From a virus: DNA of 28,088 bases. The number at the start of each line of letters is the position of its first letter. Position 1 is the stretch's first letter. The notes beneath the pieces were generated by a model. It did no database searches and was not told where the DNA came from. It saw nothing but the letters and a program-made list of their open reading frames with translations. The stretch spans positions 1-28,088 of the IMG/VR virus record IMGVR_UViG_3300037628_000128. One strand, written 5' to 3'. Below are positions 2,569 to 10,829 of the stretch, piece after piece. Both the position numbers and the translations under genes were made by a program.

Positions 2569-2763
2569 TTAACCCTCTGGCTTTTCTTGTTCGTTTACCA
2601 TGTAAAACGGATCCATACCTTCCTTTTCATTATTGTAGGAATAAGCTGCATCAAACAAAGCTCGCCTAACTATCGAAGCTCTTGAATCTCCGGTTTCCAT
2701 AGATAAATCATTTAAATAATTATCCGTATACTCTGTTATTTTTTGCCTTGATAGCATTGGCAT
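2569..2763 (-). CDS. Small ribbon-helix-helix-like protein
   Basis: A 64-residue product. The segment TDNYLNDLSMETGDSRASIV followed by RRALFDAAYSY resembles the helix-turn-helix half of an Arc/MetJ ribbon-helix-helix fold (helix, short Gly/Asp turn, Ser-initiated second helix with RRAL). That would make it a small DNA-binding regulator, perhaps autoregulatory, but the beta strand is not clear. The start at 2763 is supported by GAGGAA 8 bases upstream. It is the first gene of the leftward replication operon, immediately below a predicted promoter, and ends 3 bases before the DUF1376 gene. The function is uncertain. Confidence 0.6.
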   Translation of the reverse strand: MPMLSRQKITEYTDNYLNDLSMETGDSRASIVRRALFDAAYSYNNEKEGMDPFYMVNEQEKPEG

Positions 2764-3033: not shown

Positions 3034-3062
3034 TTGCCCTTATCATCTGTTTATGATAAAAT
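3034..3062 (+). promoter_or_regulatory. Predicted promoter with embedded palindromic operator
   Basis: TTGCCC (3034-3039) and TAAAAT (3057-3062) are separated by 17 bases. The spacer holds a perfect 7-bp inverted repeat, TTATCAT (3040-3046) and ATGATAA (3053-3059), with a 6-bp centre; its right arm overlaps the -10 box. A repressor bound there would block RNA polymerase. The winged-helix protein encoded directly downstream is the obvious candidate, which would give autoregulation (inference). Confidence 0.6.
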
Positions 3063-3086
3063 TACTTACTCAGATTAGGGGGTTAT

Positions 3087-3368
3087 ATGAACAAAAAATA
3101 CTTAATGAAAATAATCTATAGCGATGGAGAGAGAATTAAAGATATTACTCTACCCAAAAAACAGCGTGAGATTATCGAATGGGTTAGGACGAATAAAGAG
3201 GTTAGAGCGTCCGAACTATCGAGCAAGTTAAAATGTTCAATGCAAAGCGCATCAACGAGGCTGCACGCGCTCAGTGTTAAAGGGTGGCTAGATAGGCGCT
3301 CAGTAAAAAGCATTTCCGGTGGGATTGAATACATTTATTCTTTCCCTAAATTTTTAGATGATAAATAG
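3087..3368 (+). CDS. Winged-helix DNA-binding protein, likely regulator
   Basis: A 93-residue protein with AGGGGG 5 bases before the ATG. Residues 22-75 look like a winged helix-turn-helix: KKQREIIEWVRTN (helix 1), VRASELSSKLKC (helix 2), SMQSASTRLHALSVKGWLDR (recognition helix and start of the wing), then a GGIEYIYSF strand. The fold resembles MarR/ArsR-type or phage regulatory wHTH proteins, with no ligand or enzyme domain. It is the first gene of a three-gene rightward operon and sits next to a palindromic operator, so it probably controls its own promoter and perhaps the divergent replication promoter. Exact family not recognised. Confidence 0.8.
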   Translation: MNKKYLMKIIYSDGERIKDITLPKKQREIIEWVRTNKEVRASELSSKLKCSMQSASTRLHALSVKGWLDRRSVKSISGGIEYIYSFPKFLDDK

Positions 3369-3379
3369 AGAGTTAAATA

Positions 3380-3568
3380 ATGATAGTTTCACCAATAATG
3401 AAGTTTTTCGAATATAAGCATTTACCAGAACATTTGCAGAAAATCAGCGCTCCGTTTTGTGAGTTAGCGGCTGAGATGGAATTAGAATTGCCAGAGGGCG
3501 CAGAAAAAAGTGCAGGCATGAGAAAGCTGCTAGAGGCTAAAGATTGCTTTGTTCGGGCTAATTTATAA
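3380..3568 (+). CDS. Small helical-hairpin protein resembling the Acb2/Tad1 hairpin family
   Basis: A 62-residue protein. After a short N-terminus come a first helix LPEHLQKISAPFCELAAEME (15-34), a Pro-Glu-Gly turn and a second helix EKSAGMRKLLEAKDCFVRA (42-60). This helix-turn-helix hairpin, with the E(R/K)S-x-A-x-x-KL-x-EA pattern in the second helix, is shared by many short phage proteins grouped with the Acb2/Tad1 hairpin domain. Known Acb2 and Tad1 proteins bind cyclic nucleotide or gcADPR immune signals and so block CBASS or Thoeris defence. Whether this member binds such signals is inference. The start is the ATG preceded by GAGAG; Met7 is a less supported alternative. It lies between a regulator and a Cys-rich protein. 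Confidence 0.7.
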   Translation: MIVSPIMKFFEYKHLPEHLQKISAPFCELAAEMELELPEGAEKSAGMRKLLEAKDCFVRANL

Positions 3569-3793
3569 ATGCATGAATCTAGCAGGTGTTTTCGATGCGG
3601 GCGTCCTAGCGGTTTACCTGTGCGATGCACCTGCACCAAAAGCGAATTGGACAAAGCTTACGGTGATCATAATAAAGAGTTTGAAAACAGGTTTTACGGT
3701 TCAGAGCCATCGATTGAGCGGTGTAAATTAATATTGATGGCTAACGGGTATTTGGTTAAAAAGAATCCGAAGCGAAAGAAGAAAAGGCGTTAA
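3569..3793 (+). CDS. Cys-rich, basic C-terminus protein (possible zinc binder)
   Basis: A 74-residue product whose ATG follows the previous stop codon directly (TAAATG), so translation is probably coupled; no strong ribosome-binding site is seen. Cys7-x2-Cys10 and Cys20-x-Cys22 form a short metal-binding-like cluster (RCFRCGRPSGLPVRCTC). A helical middle and a Lys/Arg-rich tail (KKNPKRKKKRR) follow, consistent with nucleic acid contact. It is the last gene of the rightward operon and is followed at once by a strong hairpin. I do not recognise a named family. Confidence 0.7.
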   Translation: MHESSRCFRCGRPSGLPVRCTCTKSELDKAYGDHNKEFENRFYGSEPSIERCKLILMANGYLVKKNPKRKKKRR

Positions 3794-3902: not shown

Positions 3903-3921
3903 AAAAAACCGCATTACGCGG
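3903..3921 (-). terminator. Intrinsic terminator of the small-gene operon
   Basis: On the leftward strand CCGC-GTAAT-GCGG is followed by TTTTTT. The stem overlaps the stop codon of the last gene of the leftward small-gene operon. It separates that operon from the facing rightward operon. Confidence 0.6.
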
Positions 3922-4057
3922 CTCTCGGTTTCTGTCCCTTGCTCAATTGCCAGGGTATGACAGTATGGCAATCTAGACAGTGTTTCTCGTTGAATTTCTC
4001 AAGCTCGACTAGCCATGTGTTGCCGCATTTGGGGCATTGTTTTGTTGATTCAGTCAC
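3914..4057 (-). CDS. Zinc-ribbon-like small protein (47 residues)
   Basis: Begins with GTG that overlaps the TGA stop of the membrane peptide upstream (GTGA). Two CxxC knuckles, CPKC at residues 8-11 and CLDC at 27-30, are separated by a short Trp/Leu-rich strand region (NTWLVELEKFNE), and the end reads VIPWQLSKGQKP. The pattern matches a zinc ribbon. Similar tiny Cys4 proteins occur in phage early regions, but their role is not known to me. It is the last gene of the operon, and its stop lies in the terminator stem. Confidence 0.65.
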   Translation of the reverse strand: MTESTKQCPKCGNTWLVELEKFNEKHCLDCHTVIPWQLSKGQKPRAA

Positions 4058-4152: not shown

Positions 4153-4209
4153 AATCTCTCTCCAATGTTGATGTTATTTAGATTCGCTCATTAGTATGAA
4201 TACTATGCA
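4149..4209. repeat. 61-bp perfect direct repeat, copy 1
   Basis: Identical to 4473-4533 at an offset of 324 bp. It covers the ribosome-binding leader of the downstream gene and the last codons of the upstream Phage_ABA_S-like gene, including the shared C-terminal MSESK. Similarity continues a few bases beyond. Confidence 0.9.
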
Positions 4210-4476
4210 TATTGCCCTGCAATAACCGAACTTATTAGAATACCCAATGTAGCAATTCAGTAATAATTTATTATTCGAAAATACTGTGACACCTTTTGTT
4301 TCAAAGTCGATTACCATATTATTCTCCATTGCTATAGGCATGATGTCTGCTGGCGAGCTGCAAAACTTTGGTATATAGCTTATTATGCTTTGCACCATCC
4401 CAGGGTTTTGGATCAAGTTAACAAGTTTATTAATCTCCAAATCGCTCATGCTTTCTAACTCTTCTTGCCTGCTCAT
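4174..4476 (-). CDS. Phage_ABA_S-like small protein, diverged paralogue
   Basis: A 100-residue protein starting MSRQEELESMSDLEINKLV and ending RAICIVFILMSESK, the same ends as the next gene. The central motif CSSPADIMPIAMENNM corresponds to the NNPADxxPIxxEN signature of the Phage_ABA_S (alpha-beta-alpha sandwich) family common in phage accessory regions. The middle differs strongly from its neighbour (VTVFSNNKLLLNCYIGYSN). The function of the family is unknown. The ribosome-binding site is GGAGAGAGATT. Confidence 0.75.
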   Translation of the reverse strand: MSRQEELESMSDLEINKLVNLIQNPGMVQSIISYIPKFCSSPADIMPIAMENNMVIDFETKGVTVFSNNKLLLNCYIGYSNKFGYCRAICIVFILMSESK

Positions 4477-4533
4477 AATCTCTCTCCAATGTTGATGTTA
4501 TTTAGATTCGCTCATTAGTATGAATACTATGCA
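4473..4533. repeat. 61-bp perfect direct repeat, copy 2
   Basis: Second copy of the repeat at 4149-4209. The spacing of 324 bp equals about one gene unit and is a multiple of three, as expected for tandem gene duplication. A shorter third match (about 20 bp, the leader and first codons) lies at 4861-4880. Confidence 0.9.
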
Positions 4534-4866
4534 GATTGCTCGCAGCGGGTTTATGTTGATTGAGTGGAATTTATAGTCCACATCGTCAGCCCACCACTTT
4601 TCAGGCTTTCTATTTACTCTTGAGAAAACTTTCTGCTGTATCCCGTTTTCAATCGCTATAGGCATAATGTCGGCTGGATTGTTGCAGTAATCAGGTATAC
4701 ACCTTGACCGGTCAAAACCTCCATCGGTAGCGTATACAGAGTCGCCATCTTGAACGAAAAAATGATCCTCTCGCCAATCTTCAGGAATTTTCAATCCTTG
4801 AAATCCAGCTACCAGAATATTAATCTCTAAATCGCTCATACTTTTCAATTCTTCTTGCCTGCTCAT
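4498..4866 (-). CDS. Phage_ABA_S-like small protein
   Basis: A 122-residue protein, taking the ATG at 4864-4866 because GGAGAGAGATT lies just upstream and because it aligns with the start of its paralogue. An in-frame ATG ten codons earlier lacks such a site. The segment DYCNNPADIMPIAIENGI, then NPLRAICIVFILMSESK at the C-terminus, matches the Phage_ABA_S signature well. It is better preserved than its neighbour at 4174-4476. These proteins are accessory and of unknown function. Confidence 0.8.
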   Translation of the reverse strand: MSRQEELKSMSDLEINILVAGFQGLKIPEDWREDHFFVQDGDSVYATDGGFDRSRCIPDYCNNPADIMPIAIENGIQQKVFSRVNRKPEKWWADDVDYKFHSININPLRAICIVFILMSESK

Positions 4867-4891
4867 AATCTCTCTCCAATATGTTAGTTGT

Positions 4892-4912
4892 GACATAAAG
4901 CGGGTTTATGTC
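4892..4912. other. Perfect 8-bp inverted repeat between genes
   Basis: GACATAAA (4892-4899) and TTTATGTC (4905-4912) with a 5-base centre, GCGGG. It lies in the short gap between the 56-residue gene and the Phage_ABA_S-like gene. No T-run follows on the leftward strand, so an operator or an mRNA-processing or stabilising hairpin is more likely than a terminator. Confidence 0.5.
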
Positions 4913-4920
4913 GTTGTGGG

Positions 4921-5091
4921 TTACTTGGCTTTCTTTCCTTTTTCTACGCAATCTAGCGAGAGGTTTTTCGTTTTAACTCTACGCTCTATAACGACTGAAG
5001 CAGTAAGGCAGGCATCCAAAGTATTAAATTCCTGCATTTCTAAAGCCGTTCTAGCGTAGGCGTGCATGTAAACTATCAATATATATTCCAT
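4921..5091 (-). CDS. Hypothetical 56-residue protein
   Basis: The start at 5091 (MEYILIVYMHAYARTALEMQ) is chosen because GGAGAAAGTT precedes it. A longer in-frame version, 19 residues more, overlaps the upstream membrane-peptide gene and has no ribosome-binding site. The N-terminus is hydrophobic, followed by EFNTLDACLTASVVIERR and a Lys-rich tail. This looks like a small soluble protein with an N-terminal beta strand and a following helix. No family recognised. Confidence 0.6.
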   Translation of the reverse strand: MEYILIVYMHAYARTALEMQEFNTLDACLTASVVIERRVKTKNLSLDCVEKGKKAK

Positions 5092-5104
5092 AACTTTCTC
5101 CAAT

Positions 5105-5224
5105 TTATTGTATATACATGACGTAAAACCCAACCGCCCACGGTGCAACCATGAACCAGCCTACCGCTAGTATGAGTAGTGCGCTTATAGGTAGTGGTGG
5201 ATTGGGTCTGCGTCGTTTTTTCAT
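5105..5224 (-). CDS. Single-span membrane peptide (39 residues)
   Basis: ATG follows the upstream stop codon directly (TAAATG). The product is MKKRRRPNPPLPISALLILA then VGWFMVAPWAVGFYVMYIQ: a strongly basic N-terminus and one long hydrophobic segment, predicting an N-in inner-membrane span. The ending GFYVMYIQ resembles GFYVLFVK of the membrane peptide at 4054-4152, which may mean the two are related. Role unknown. Confidence 0.6.
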   Translation of the reverse strand: MKKRRRPNPPLPISALLILAVGWFMVAPWAVGFYVMYIQ

Positions 5225-5635
5225 TTAAAGCTGTAAGCCTTCGATTCTTTCCGCTTCTTTCATTATTTCAACGTATTTATCAAAACCTAATAAATCCTTA
5301 ATAACATTACGAAGCGTCGACATCTGAGACTCTACGCGTGCTATGTGATTCAAGCGACGAGTATCGACCTTTTTTGATTTGCTCGACCCGCTCAACTTTA
5401 GTATATGTACGTTTATTTTTTTAATTTGCAGCCCTTTTATATGATTAGCCATTTGCGTTTTGTGAATCATATCTTTAAATGACTGACTTACTTCTTTGCT
5501 ATTACGAGTATCACGCATTCGGCTTAACTTTAGTTCCATTATTGATCTCTGACCATCGATGGTAATCACTAAATCTTTCATTTCAAAAATGCAATCTGTC
5601 AATTCTATGTCTCGTAAAATATCAAGCTCTCTCAT
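5225..5635 (-). CDS. Hypothetical 136-residue protein
   Basis: Starts MRELDILRDIELTDCIFEMK with GGAGAAGAG upstream. It is rich in charged residues and predicted mainly helical, with a beta-like stretch in DLVITIDGQRSIMELKLSRM and a basic SGSSKSKKVDTRR linker near residue 80. The C-terminal half (about 90-136) looks like a helical bundle. Two bases-apart coupling to the next membrane-peptide gene places it in the same operon. No family recognised; a nucleic-acid-related role would be a guess. Confidence 0.65.
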   Translation of the reverse strand: MRELDILRDIELTDCIFEMKDLVITIDGQRSIMELKLSRMRDTRNSKEVSQSFKDMIHKTQMANHIKGLQIKKINVHILKLSGSSKSKKVDTRRLNHIARVESQMSTLRNVIKDLLGFDKYVEIMKEAERIEGLQL

Positions 5636-5655
5636 TTTCTCTTCTCCAATTAAAG

Positions 5656-5934
5656 TTATTCGCCTGTTAGCCGCTCTAAATCACGGCCCGTTAGTTGTTT
5701 AAATTTCGTACAAACTGCTATTTGGTCCTCTTCCGCATCTCGTGATACAAAGCCCTCCCTTTTTCCAAGCTCAAGCCAGGACTCATGCTTTGCGCAATCT
5801 GCTTTCTGTACGTTTCGAATCTCTGTGAGTAAGTCACTCAAAAAGCACATGATAAGCTCCCTCTCTGCCCCTTCATGGCATTTACTCTCTAAAACCCACC
5901 TACGTGCTACCTTCATCAAGTGTTGGGCGCTCAT
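5656..5934 (-). CDS. Hypothetical 92-residue helical protein
   Basis: Its ATG overlaps the TGA of the preceding 54-residue gene (ATGA). The sequence is amphipathic and charged (MKVARRWVLESKCHEGAERE, then LIMCFLSDLLTEIRNVQ), pointing to a helical fold, with Cys residues at about 19, 30, 47 and 75 that do not form an obvious metal site. It ends FKQLTGRDLERLTGE. No family recognised. Confidence 0.65.
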   Translation of the reverse strand: MSAQHLMKVARRWVLESKCHEGAERELIMCFLSDLLTEIRNVQKADCAKHESWLELGKREGFVSRDAEEDQIAVCTKFKQLTGRDLERLTGE

Positions 5935-6095
5935 TTGATTAACTCCCCTCGTTCATCATACCGCTTGATATTCTCCTCGCCGAAATCTTTAATTAGCTGC
6001 TTAATTTCGTCACTTGCTTTCTTATCGTGCGTTCTGTCGCTTACATCTGAACTTGAAGTATAATCAACACCTGCGCCGTATCTTCGTTGTTTCAT
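5931..6095 (-). CDS. Hypothetical 54-residue hydrophilic protein
   Basis: Starts MKQRRYGAGVDYTSSSDVSD with AGGTGAT 4 bases upstream, and ends in the ATGA overlap with the next gene. A charged helix follows (KKASDEIKQLIKDFGEENIK). The N-terminus is basic and Gly/Ser-rich. No family recognised; the good ribosome-binding site and the coupling support it as real. Confidence 0.6.
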   Translation of the reverse strand: MKQRRYGAGVDYTSSSDVSDRTHDKKASDEIKQLIKDFGEENIKRYDERGELIK

Positions 6096-9044: not shown

Positions 9045-10829
9045 TTACTGTCCTCTCAAAAGTTTTCGTATTGCTTCAATTGCATTTTCTGGTGAGCGTC
9101 TAGCCAATGTATCAAGAGCCGTTCTACCAGCCTTAATCGTTGCCTGTAGTGGCTGACCTGTCACCGCATCAACTGCCGCGCCTGCAACCTGTTTCTTTAA
9201 TCCCGTAGCAGCATCTAGTTTTAGCAACTGCTCTAAATCATCTGCAAATAAAGATTGCTCCAAGACTCTATCCTTAAACTTCACTCCATTTTTGACTAAA
9301 ACGTCCTCTAGCTCTGCCATCGATTTCATTAAGTTTGCGCGGCCTTGAGAGTTATTTGTCAACGTTCTGAGCTTAGTACCTAGCGCCGTATCCGAAAAAT
9401 CACTTGCCAAGTCTAGATTTGTTCCTGCTGCTTTCTGGAAATTATCTAAAGCGCTCTTTGATGAGCTGAATGTATCGTTAACTTTCTTATAAGGCGCGAA
9501 GTTATCACCTAACACTGTGTTGATTTCTTTACGCAAACTCTTTAAAGCGACCTCAGCTCCACCAGCTCCGCCGGTTGATGTTTTACCAAACGACACTTGC
9601 TTATCAATGAACTTTTTAAGCTTATGAAATTGTAACGCGTCACCAGTTTCTACCGCCTCATTCAGTCGCCTTAAAGTAATCTTTAATATACCTTGTGCGG
9701 TTGATGCACCTGATACACCGCCCTCAAGAGCTGAACCTGCAAAATCAAGTGCAGACAAATCATCTGACACCTTCACATCTAATTTTTTTAGCTCTCCGCT
9801 GAATTTTTGAACTGCTTGTGACATATCAACAGGCTTGTTTTTTAAATTCGTTTCTGCAATCTTGTTGACGTTACGTCCTGCACGCCTATTTATTCTACTA
9901 GCCTCGCTCACTCTATTTAGCAGAGTTCTACCAACAACGTTACCGATTCTATCGACCGCCTTTCCTGACCTACTTCTTATTGCCTTACCTGCCACATTAA
10001 GCATTTCACCAAATCTTGCCTTGTCTAACTTTCCTGATGATTTAAGCATCGCTGTTGTTTCGGGGCTTAAGCCTTGATTCATTGCTTTTATAGCGACCTT
10101 ATCTTTGACAACCCTAGGCAATCCATCGGTTATTTTTGAGCGTAAATTGTGAGCACTTAATTTAACGTTTGCAGTGCTTATGTCGTCAGATTTTGCGGAT
10201 ATCAACTCTGCTATTTTTTGCTTTCCTAATGATTGCTTGGGCGAAAATCTGCCTGCTATGGCTGATTTTGGCGAGACTAGAGATCTAACCGGTAATAATG
10301 CGAGAGTCGCATCAGGTAAAGCTTTTGCAATCGATGCTAAAAATGGGCTATCCGTTAATGCTAAAGCACCCTCGCCGGAACTCTCTCTAGCTGCTTCAAG
10401 ACCTTTAGCTACTGGCTCTAATGTTTCAGCAACGTTAGATACTGCCTGACTGCCTGCGCCTAGCTGAGGTTCAAAAGTTAACGCATCCTGAACACGTTTA
10501 GCCGTAGCAGCTCCAACCCCCTCTTGACCTTCTATAAATCCTTGAGGGGATGCCGCTAACCCAACAATGCCACCAGCAATAGGGGCAACTGCTCCGGATG
10601 CTAAAGATAAAGCGCCCTCTATTCCGCCAAAGATTGACTCAAGTAAATCAGGGTTATTTCTCGCCTGTTCAAGCTTTGCCTTTTCTGCATCAAGTTCCTT
10701 TAGCCTGTTTTCTGCTTGCTGTCTGATATCTTGATTAGCCTGCGCCTTCTGTGGGTTCACCTGTTGTAATTCAGCCATTAAGTTAACCGGCTGTCTCCGC
10801 TGGTTTAATTCAGCTAGTAAGTCGGCCAT
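9045..10829 (-). CDS. Putative internal virion / DNA ejection protein (594 residues)
   Basis: Begins MADLLAELNQRRQPVNLMAE, helical and Gln/Ala-rich to about residue 55, with a hydrophobic Gly/Ala stretch (SLASGAVAPIAGGIVGLAAS, about 75-94) and then long basic helices to the end (TPEN-type segments such as LARRSPENAIEAIRKLLRG). Position and size (594 versus 609 for P22 gp16) suggest the gp16-like ejected protein, but I see no clear sequence match. The TTP-type hydrophobic patch could insert into the membrane. One-base overlap (TAATG) with the preceding gene supports co-regulation. Confidence 0.6.
   Translation of the reverse strand: MADLLAELNQRRQPVNLMAELQQVNPQKAQANQDIRQQAENRLKELDAEKAKLEQARNNPDLLESIFGGIEGALSLASGAVAPIAGGIVGLAASPQGFIEGQEGVGAATAKRVQDALTFEPQLGAGSQAVSNVAETLEPVAKGLEAARESSGEGALALTDSPFLASIAKALPDATLALLPVRSLVSPKSAIAGRFSPKQSLGKQKIAELISAKSDDISTANVKLSAHNLRSKITDGLPRVVKDKVAIKAMNQGLSPETTAMLKSSGKLDKARFGEMLNVAGKAIRSRSGKAVDRIGNVVGRTLLNRVSEASRINRRAGRNVNKIAETNLKNKPVDMSQAVQKFSGELKKLDVKVSDDLSALDFAGSALEGGVSGASTAQGILKITLRRLNEAVETGDALQFHKLKKFIDKQVSFGKTSTGGAGGAEVALKSLRKEINTVLGDNFAPYKKVNDTFSSSKSALDNFQKAAGTNLDLASDFSDTALGTKLRTLTNNSQGRANLMKSMAELEDVLVKNGVKFKDRVLEQSLFADDLEQLLKLDAATGLKKQVAGAAVDAVTGQPLQATIKAGRTALDTLARRSPENAIEAIRKLLRGQ

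Follow-up and report, generated by a model that had tools for sequence, protein, structure and literature searches.

The locus and its three plus-strand genes

The window analyzed here is an entire IMG/VR virus record of 28,088 bases, a contig of a P22-like podovirus whose coat protein shares 52% identity with its counterpart in Pseudoalteromonas phage H6/1. The minus strand carries nearly all genes of the window. The plus strand has a run of three consecutive ORFs of 93, 62, and 74 aa, a module spanning 3087-3793 (+) that lies between a divergent 64-aa gene and a convergent 47-aa gene. An earlier note, made from the sequence alone, had described these ORFs as a rightward operon under operator control. 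Both parts of that description were borne out, in that all three ORFs were found on the strand opposite to their neighbors and a palindrome was found within a promoter-like site upstream of the first. The features of the locus are as follows:

2569-2763 (-): 64-aa gene, divergent from the module
3034-3062 (+): extended -10 promoter-like site, TTGCCC-17-TAAAAT, with TG before the -10
3040-3059 (+): candidate operator, a perfect 7+7 palindrome (TTATCAT-N6-ATGATAA) within the promoter spacer
3087-3368 (+): 93-aa winged-helix-like protein, an orphan with sub-threshold MarR/LexA-type matches
3380-3568 (+): 62-aa helical hairpin, a divergent relative of the Acb2/Tad1 hairpins (PHROG 1761/5120), from profiles, AlphaFold2, and structural search
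3392-3409 (+): short N-terminal helix, residues 5-10 (AlphaFold2 model)
3428-3487 (+): long helix 1, residues 17-36 (AlphaFold2 model)
3488-3499 (+): turn, residues 37-40 (PEG), within the LPxGxEKS motif common to canonical Acb2/Tad1 hairpins (AlphaFold2, alignment)
3500-3559 (+): long helix 2, residues 41-60 (AlphaFold2 model)
3521-3544 (+): near-invariant RKLLEAKD, residues 48-55, in which R48 replaces the canonical Thr (T68 of T4 Acb2)
3569-3793 (+): 74-aa Cys-rich basic ORF, an orphan with a CxxC...CxC start and a basic tail
3914-4057 (-): 47-aa zinc-ribbon-like gene, convergent with the module

The palindrome is the sole perfect copy of TTATCAT-N6-ATGATAA in the window, and its superposition on a promoter-like site right before the first ORF is consistent with an operator; counts of promoter-like sites and of palindromes in the region were no higher than chance. 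Since the module had no counterpart beside the replication genes in any of 80 related loci, we regard it as accessory in this phage.

The 93-aa ORF matched winged-helix models for MarR (2e-4) and the LexA DNA-binding domain (1e-3). The winged-helix regulator proposed for this position thus stands as far as winged-helix-like matches exist, all of them below the model cut-offs. Two weak relatives were found, in Vibrio phage, and none in the IMG/VR scan; judged from its sequence, the protein is probably the regulator of the hairpin operon. The 74-aa ORF does have the CxxC...CxC start and basic tail of the Cys-rich basic protein that had been described. It had no relative in any database searched, IMG/VR included, and is putatively coding by its composition and position only.

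Relatives of the two partner ORFs were likewise absent near other members of the hairpin family in the loci examined. Since both partner genes are orphans and never accompany the hairpin there, the suggestion that the partners help is left without evidence, and the operon was in this respect over-read. The same results bear on a reading in which the three genes form one regulatory, superinfection or toxin-antitoxin-like unit with the hairpin as a partner. Tight spacing (the TAA of the 62-aa ORF abuts the ATG at 3569) and a shared promoter would suit such a unit, but we consider it quite improbable, given that the hairpin travels alone in hundreds of phages and that its partners have no relatives beside it or in IMG/VR.

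Two further observations concern the neighboring minus-strand genes. The 47-aa protein of 3914-4057 contains CPKCGNTW...HCLDC and has a weak match to PHROG 25658. Beyond it, 4174-4476 and 4498-4896 (-) encode two paralogues in tandem that belong to the P22 NinX-like PHROG 444. Their ends (MSRQEEL...SMSDLEIN and RAICIVFILMSESK) are nearly identical and their middles have diverged, which suggests cassette duplication or recombination.

Relationship to the Acb2/Tad1 hairpins

AlphaFold2 predicted the 62-aa protein with a mean pLDDT of 96.3 as a short helix followed by two long antiparallel helices, in agreement with the helix, LPEG turn, and helix that had been read from the sequence, with EKSAGMRKLLEA in helix 2. 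The Acb2 protomer likewise comprises one short and two long antiparallel helices (PMC12043709), and a canonical actinophage member modeled with AlphaFold2 showed the same layout as the 62-aa protein (H2-7, H16-39, H44-66). Among the matches listed by a Foldseek search of the PDB with the 62-aa protein, and by a second look with VIA, there were generic helical bundles only and no Acb2. The canonical control ranked T4 Acb2 (Vs.4) first and yet reached only E=2.1, so the PDB fold search is not a reliable detector of the hairpin family. Among the predicted viral structures of BFVD, the named neighbors below the direct homologues were mostly "Acb2/Tad1 hairpin domain-containing protein."

The protein matched PHROG 1761 (2.6e-30) and PHROG 5120 (9.7e-23), as did all 38 family members tested against these profiles. 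Single-sequence searches assigned it to no family (best Pfam match "Occludin_ELL," 0.13; NCBIfam none; PDB none). The curated Pfam model Acb2_Tad1_hairpin (PF24729, cut-off 27 bits) matched neither the 62-aa protein nor the contig; it reported 4/38 family members, at best E 0.011 and none over the cut-off.

Profiles were then built from two canonical PF24729 sets, actinophage proteins and PaMx33-type Acb2, representatives of both of which exceed the Pfam cut-off; the actinophage set includes StellaBean gp101, annotated as a "cyclic nucleotide sequestering protein." When all six frames of the window were searched with the actinophage HMM, the 62-aa ORF alone of 398 ORFs was matched (E=3.6e-5; next best 0.35). 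The profile check that the earlier note had called for was therefore negative with the curated Pfam model and positive with the canonical actinophage HMM. With hhalign, the family and the actinophage group aligned at 95% probability (E 2e-8 to 4e-8) over the N-terminal motif, helix 1, the LPxG turn, and KLxEA. The actinophage HMM matched 130/148 family members at E<0.01, and the reciprocal search matched 53/75.

These results bear on whether the resemblance to Acb2/Tad1 is a chance likeness of short helical hairpins. The protein is indeed short, helical, and under the curated Pfam threshold. However, the hhalign score of 41 compares with a maximum of 17.6 over 150 column permutations and with 7.6 for the reversed profile, shuffled and reversed control sequences gave 0 matches in both HMM directions, and the reciprocal HMM matches cover the large majority of both families; we therefore hold chance likeness to be extremely improbable.

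Links to characterized proteins were also found. PHROG 1454 was matched by 33/38 family members and also by T4 Acb2, and the family profile aligned in register with the solved Acb2 homolog 43 (LPEGREKSVFKTKLEEA, E 0.75). The actinophage profile matched Acb2 homolog 43 at 1.4e-11 and Tad1 at 2.6e-5 among solved structures. The PaMx33-type Acb2 profile had no direct match to the family; since it scores poorly even against the actinophage group, the hairpin superfamily must be very diverse. A separate profile match, to Gp22 (8JAJ, E 0.004), was confined to the N-terminal half.

The relationship that the earlier note had drawn is thus supported by profiles, by predicted topology, and by the structural search of viral models; it is real, though overlooked by a standard annotation pipeline. 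Its sequence and predicted fold place the 62-aa protein in the Acb2/Tad1 hairpin superfamily as a divergent and free-standing member.

Distribution of the family and its proximity to Tad2

Relatives of the 62-aa protein are widespread. Searches by tblastn found the family in 249/50,697 INPHARED phage records and in 23 plasmid records; one restricted IMG/VR scan with six exact peptides gave at least 526 relatives, and 195 stretches with relatives were found in GTDB bacterial genomes. The phyla include Proteobacteria, Actinobacteria, Firmicutes, Cyanobacteria, Bacteroidota, Chloroflexi, Planctomycetes, and others. Hundreds of homologues with 45-80% identity leave no doubt that the hairpin gene is genuine. 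Residues F10, H14, L19, S23, E42, R48-K49-L50-L51-E52-A53-K54-D55, and R59 are invariant or nearly so across phyla, and gene settings vary: the locations include capsid gene neighborhoods, the gap between terminase subunits, a lysis cassette, and the vicinity of rIIA, and early, structural, lysis, and accessory regions are all represented. Nearly all features under the phage-record and plasmid matches are annotated "hypothetical protein," PHROG 1761 and 5120 are without functional annotation, and literature searches with these PHROG numbers found nothing; the family has no name. Two leads were rejected: the names "occludin homology" and "anti-TRAP" on some homologues are spurious or derive from a fused N-terminal zinc domain, and the two commonest "neighbor clusters" are antisense ORFs of the hairpin gene itself.

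Genes for proteins like Tad2, which counteracts Thoeris, were found close to the hairpin gene, or fused to it. In L066 (IMGVR 3300011618_000001), a 360-aa ORF at 4896-5978 joins an RKLLEAKD hairpin to WDGH (PF25311) and Tad2-like (PF11195, E 9e-24) domains and is, from this domain content, apparently a multi-signal anti-defense protein. In Yersinia similis (L137) and a Rhizobiaceae MAG (L144), the hairpin gene is directly followed by a Tad2-like gene; in L062 and in Alteromonas AD45 phages (L046/L085), the Tad2-like gene lies upstream, at 0.4 kb and 0.9 kb, respectively. All five independent Tad2 genes detected in 2.13 Mb of family loci thus lie <1 kb from the hairpin gene, and none was found in 0.70 Mb of control loci. 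The <1-kb zones make up 18% of the family-locus sequence, which gives 0.18^5, or ~2e-4, a value computed after the fact for a linkage noticed post hoc in five loci of 174. Considering this fusion and adjacency, the hairpin family and Tad2 are probably in the same line of work, and the counter-defense role proposed for the 62-aa protein gains indirect support.

Other arrangements were seen in these loci and elsewhere. A short segment of the form LVEY.DG..GYISWSP..FE..Y, which forms an N-terminal fusion with the hairpin in one phage and with Tad2 elsewhere, occurs at L087 3767-4174, L144 ~10146-10731, L062 3062-3821, and in L444, and may be a shared, uncharacterized adaptor of anti-defense domains. 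In Paracoccus (L183/L449; genome G015, contig 5, 61800-62440), a Tad2-like gene lies ~0.2 kb downstream of a canonical Acb2/Tad1 hairpin, on the same strand. Two Xenorhabdus genomes (G003 and G011) have unusually many Tad2-like matches, seven and five, respectively.

Conservation and gene setting could also be taken to mean that the scaffold was retained while its function shifted away from sequestration, for example to binding of host proteins or nucleic acids by a takeover factor. The unusually strongly conserved charged helix (RKLLEAKD and R59) could serve to contact proteins or nucleic acids, and the variety of genomic regions that carry the gene would fit. The repeated linkage to Tad2 and the homology to several characterized signal sponges argue against it, and we regard such a shift as unlikely.

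Predicted function and comparison with known systems

Thr opens the T[KND]L motif in 96-98% of both canonical groups; in the family, this position is Arg in 148/148 sequences. Eight residues further on, the Trp of the actinophage and T4 proteins is replaced by Cys or Ala in the family. In T4 Acb2, T68M lowers binding and Y8A abolishes it (PMC12657230). Position 12 is Y/F/H/W in 99% of the family, with an uncertain N-terminal alignment to Y8 of T4 Acb2. The family also has an invariant charged face (K54/D55/R59), in which R59 matches an Arg of T4- and PaMx33-type Acb2. The substituted binding residue could not be seen from the single sequence on which the earlier note was based.

Acb2 and Tad1 sponges are hexamers with ligand pockets between their subunits; they sequester cyclic nucleotides or gcADPR and so inhibit CBASS or Thoeris. 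We favor, with some confidence, the explanation that the phage uses the 62-aa protein as a sponge to weaken a signaling defense. The hairpin would form an oligomer whose inter-subunit pockets capture an immune signal of the nucleotide type, and this sequestration would shield the phage from CBASS, Thoeris or a similar defense. Arg for Thr and Cys for Trp would re-tune the pocket and alter its specificity; a pocket re-tuned in this way implies a ligand that probably differs from the known ligands or is a subset of them. The gene would be expressed from an accessory, separately promoted operon, probably under control of the winged-helix orphan.

What such a sponge would bind is a matter of several readings. 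The protein could bind the known Acb2/Tad1 signals (CBASS cyclic di/trinucleotides or gcADPR) with Arg48 in place of Thr, and the family would then be an ordinary additional sponge subfamily. It has the same scaffold, the LPxGxEKS turn, the KLxEA core, and Arg at 59 as in T4/PaMx33-type Acb2, and the linkage to Tad2 also counts in its favor; however, replacement of the Thr throughout the family, and of the Trp as well, argues for a changed pocket, and we find this reading rather doubtful. Given the swapped residue, the 62-aa protein may instead soak up an alarm signal other than that of Acb2/Tad1. Extended to the whole family, a tentative proposal of lower probability is that RKLLEAKD proteins are a distinct, very widespread sponge branch whose invariant Arg/Lys/Asp helix binds an immune nucleotide outside the known Acb2/Tad1 range or, alternatively, that the change of Thr to Arg lets them ignore decoys, e.g., Panoptes 2',3'-c-di-AMP.

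The fixed Thr-to-Arg change offers a concrete handle on ligand specificity. If the family sequesters an immune signal, it would give an easily testable means of probing nucleotide alarm molecules, and if the RKLLEAKD helix does bind a novel nucleotide, an undescribed, phylum-crossing alarm signal would be revealed.

Compared with known systems, the family lacks defining features of Acb2 and Tad1 proper and is therefore kept out of both. The actinophage hairpins (PF24729; StellaBean gp101; Acb2 homolog 43, PDB 9PTQ) are likewise short phage proteins of the same predicted topology with a significant profile match, and share an F-x-[YF]..H start, V[RS]....LA in helix 1, an LPxG[R/P/A]EK[SA] turn, and KLxEA in helix 2; the family differs in having R for T48, LEAKDCFVRA for EEAMFWANAA, an invariant charged helix 2, and scores below the Pfam cut-off. 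The Acb2 proteins of T4 (Vs.4) and PaMx33 are also phage-encoded, with one short and two long antiparallel helices and an Arg at the position of R59, but have a longer inter-helix region, T68 where the family has Arg, and, for the PaMx33 type, a profile without a direct match. Tad1 (Thoeris anti-defense 1) resembles the family in its C-terminal pair of long helices and its motif REN/K..A.T..EEA..W, and is linked to it via the actinophage profile, whereas its N-terminal beta-sheet domain (b1-b4; PMC12043709) is lacking in the all-helical 62-aa protein. Tad2 (PF11195) has an unrelated beta-rich fold and is the system that stands fused to or beside the family in five loci.
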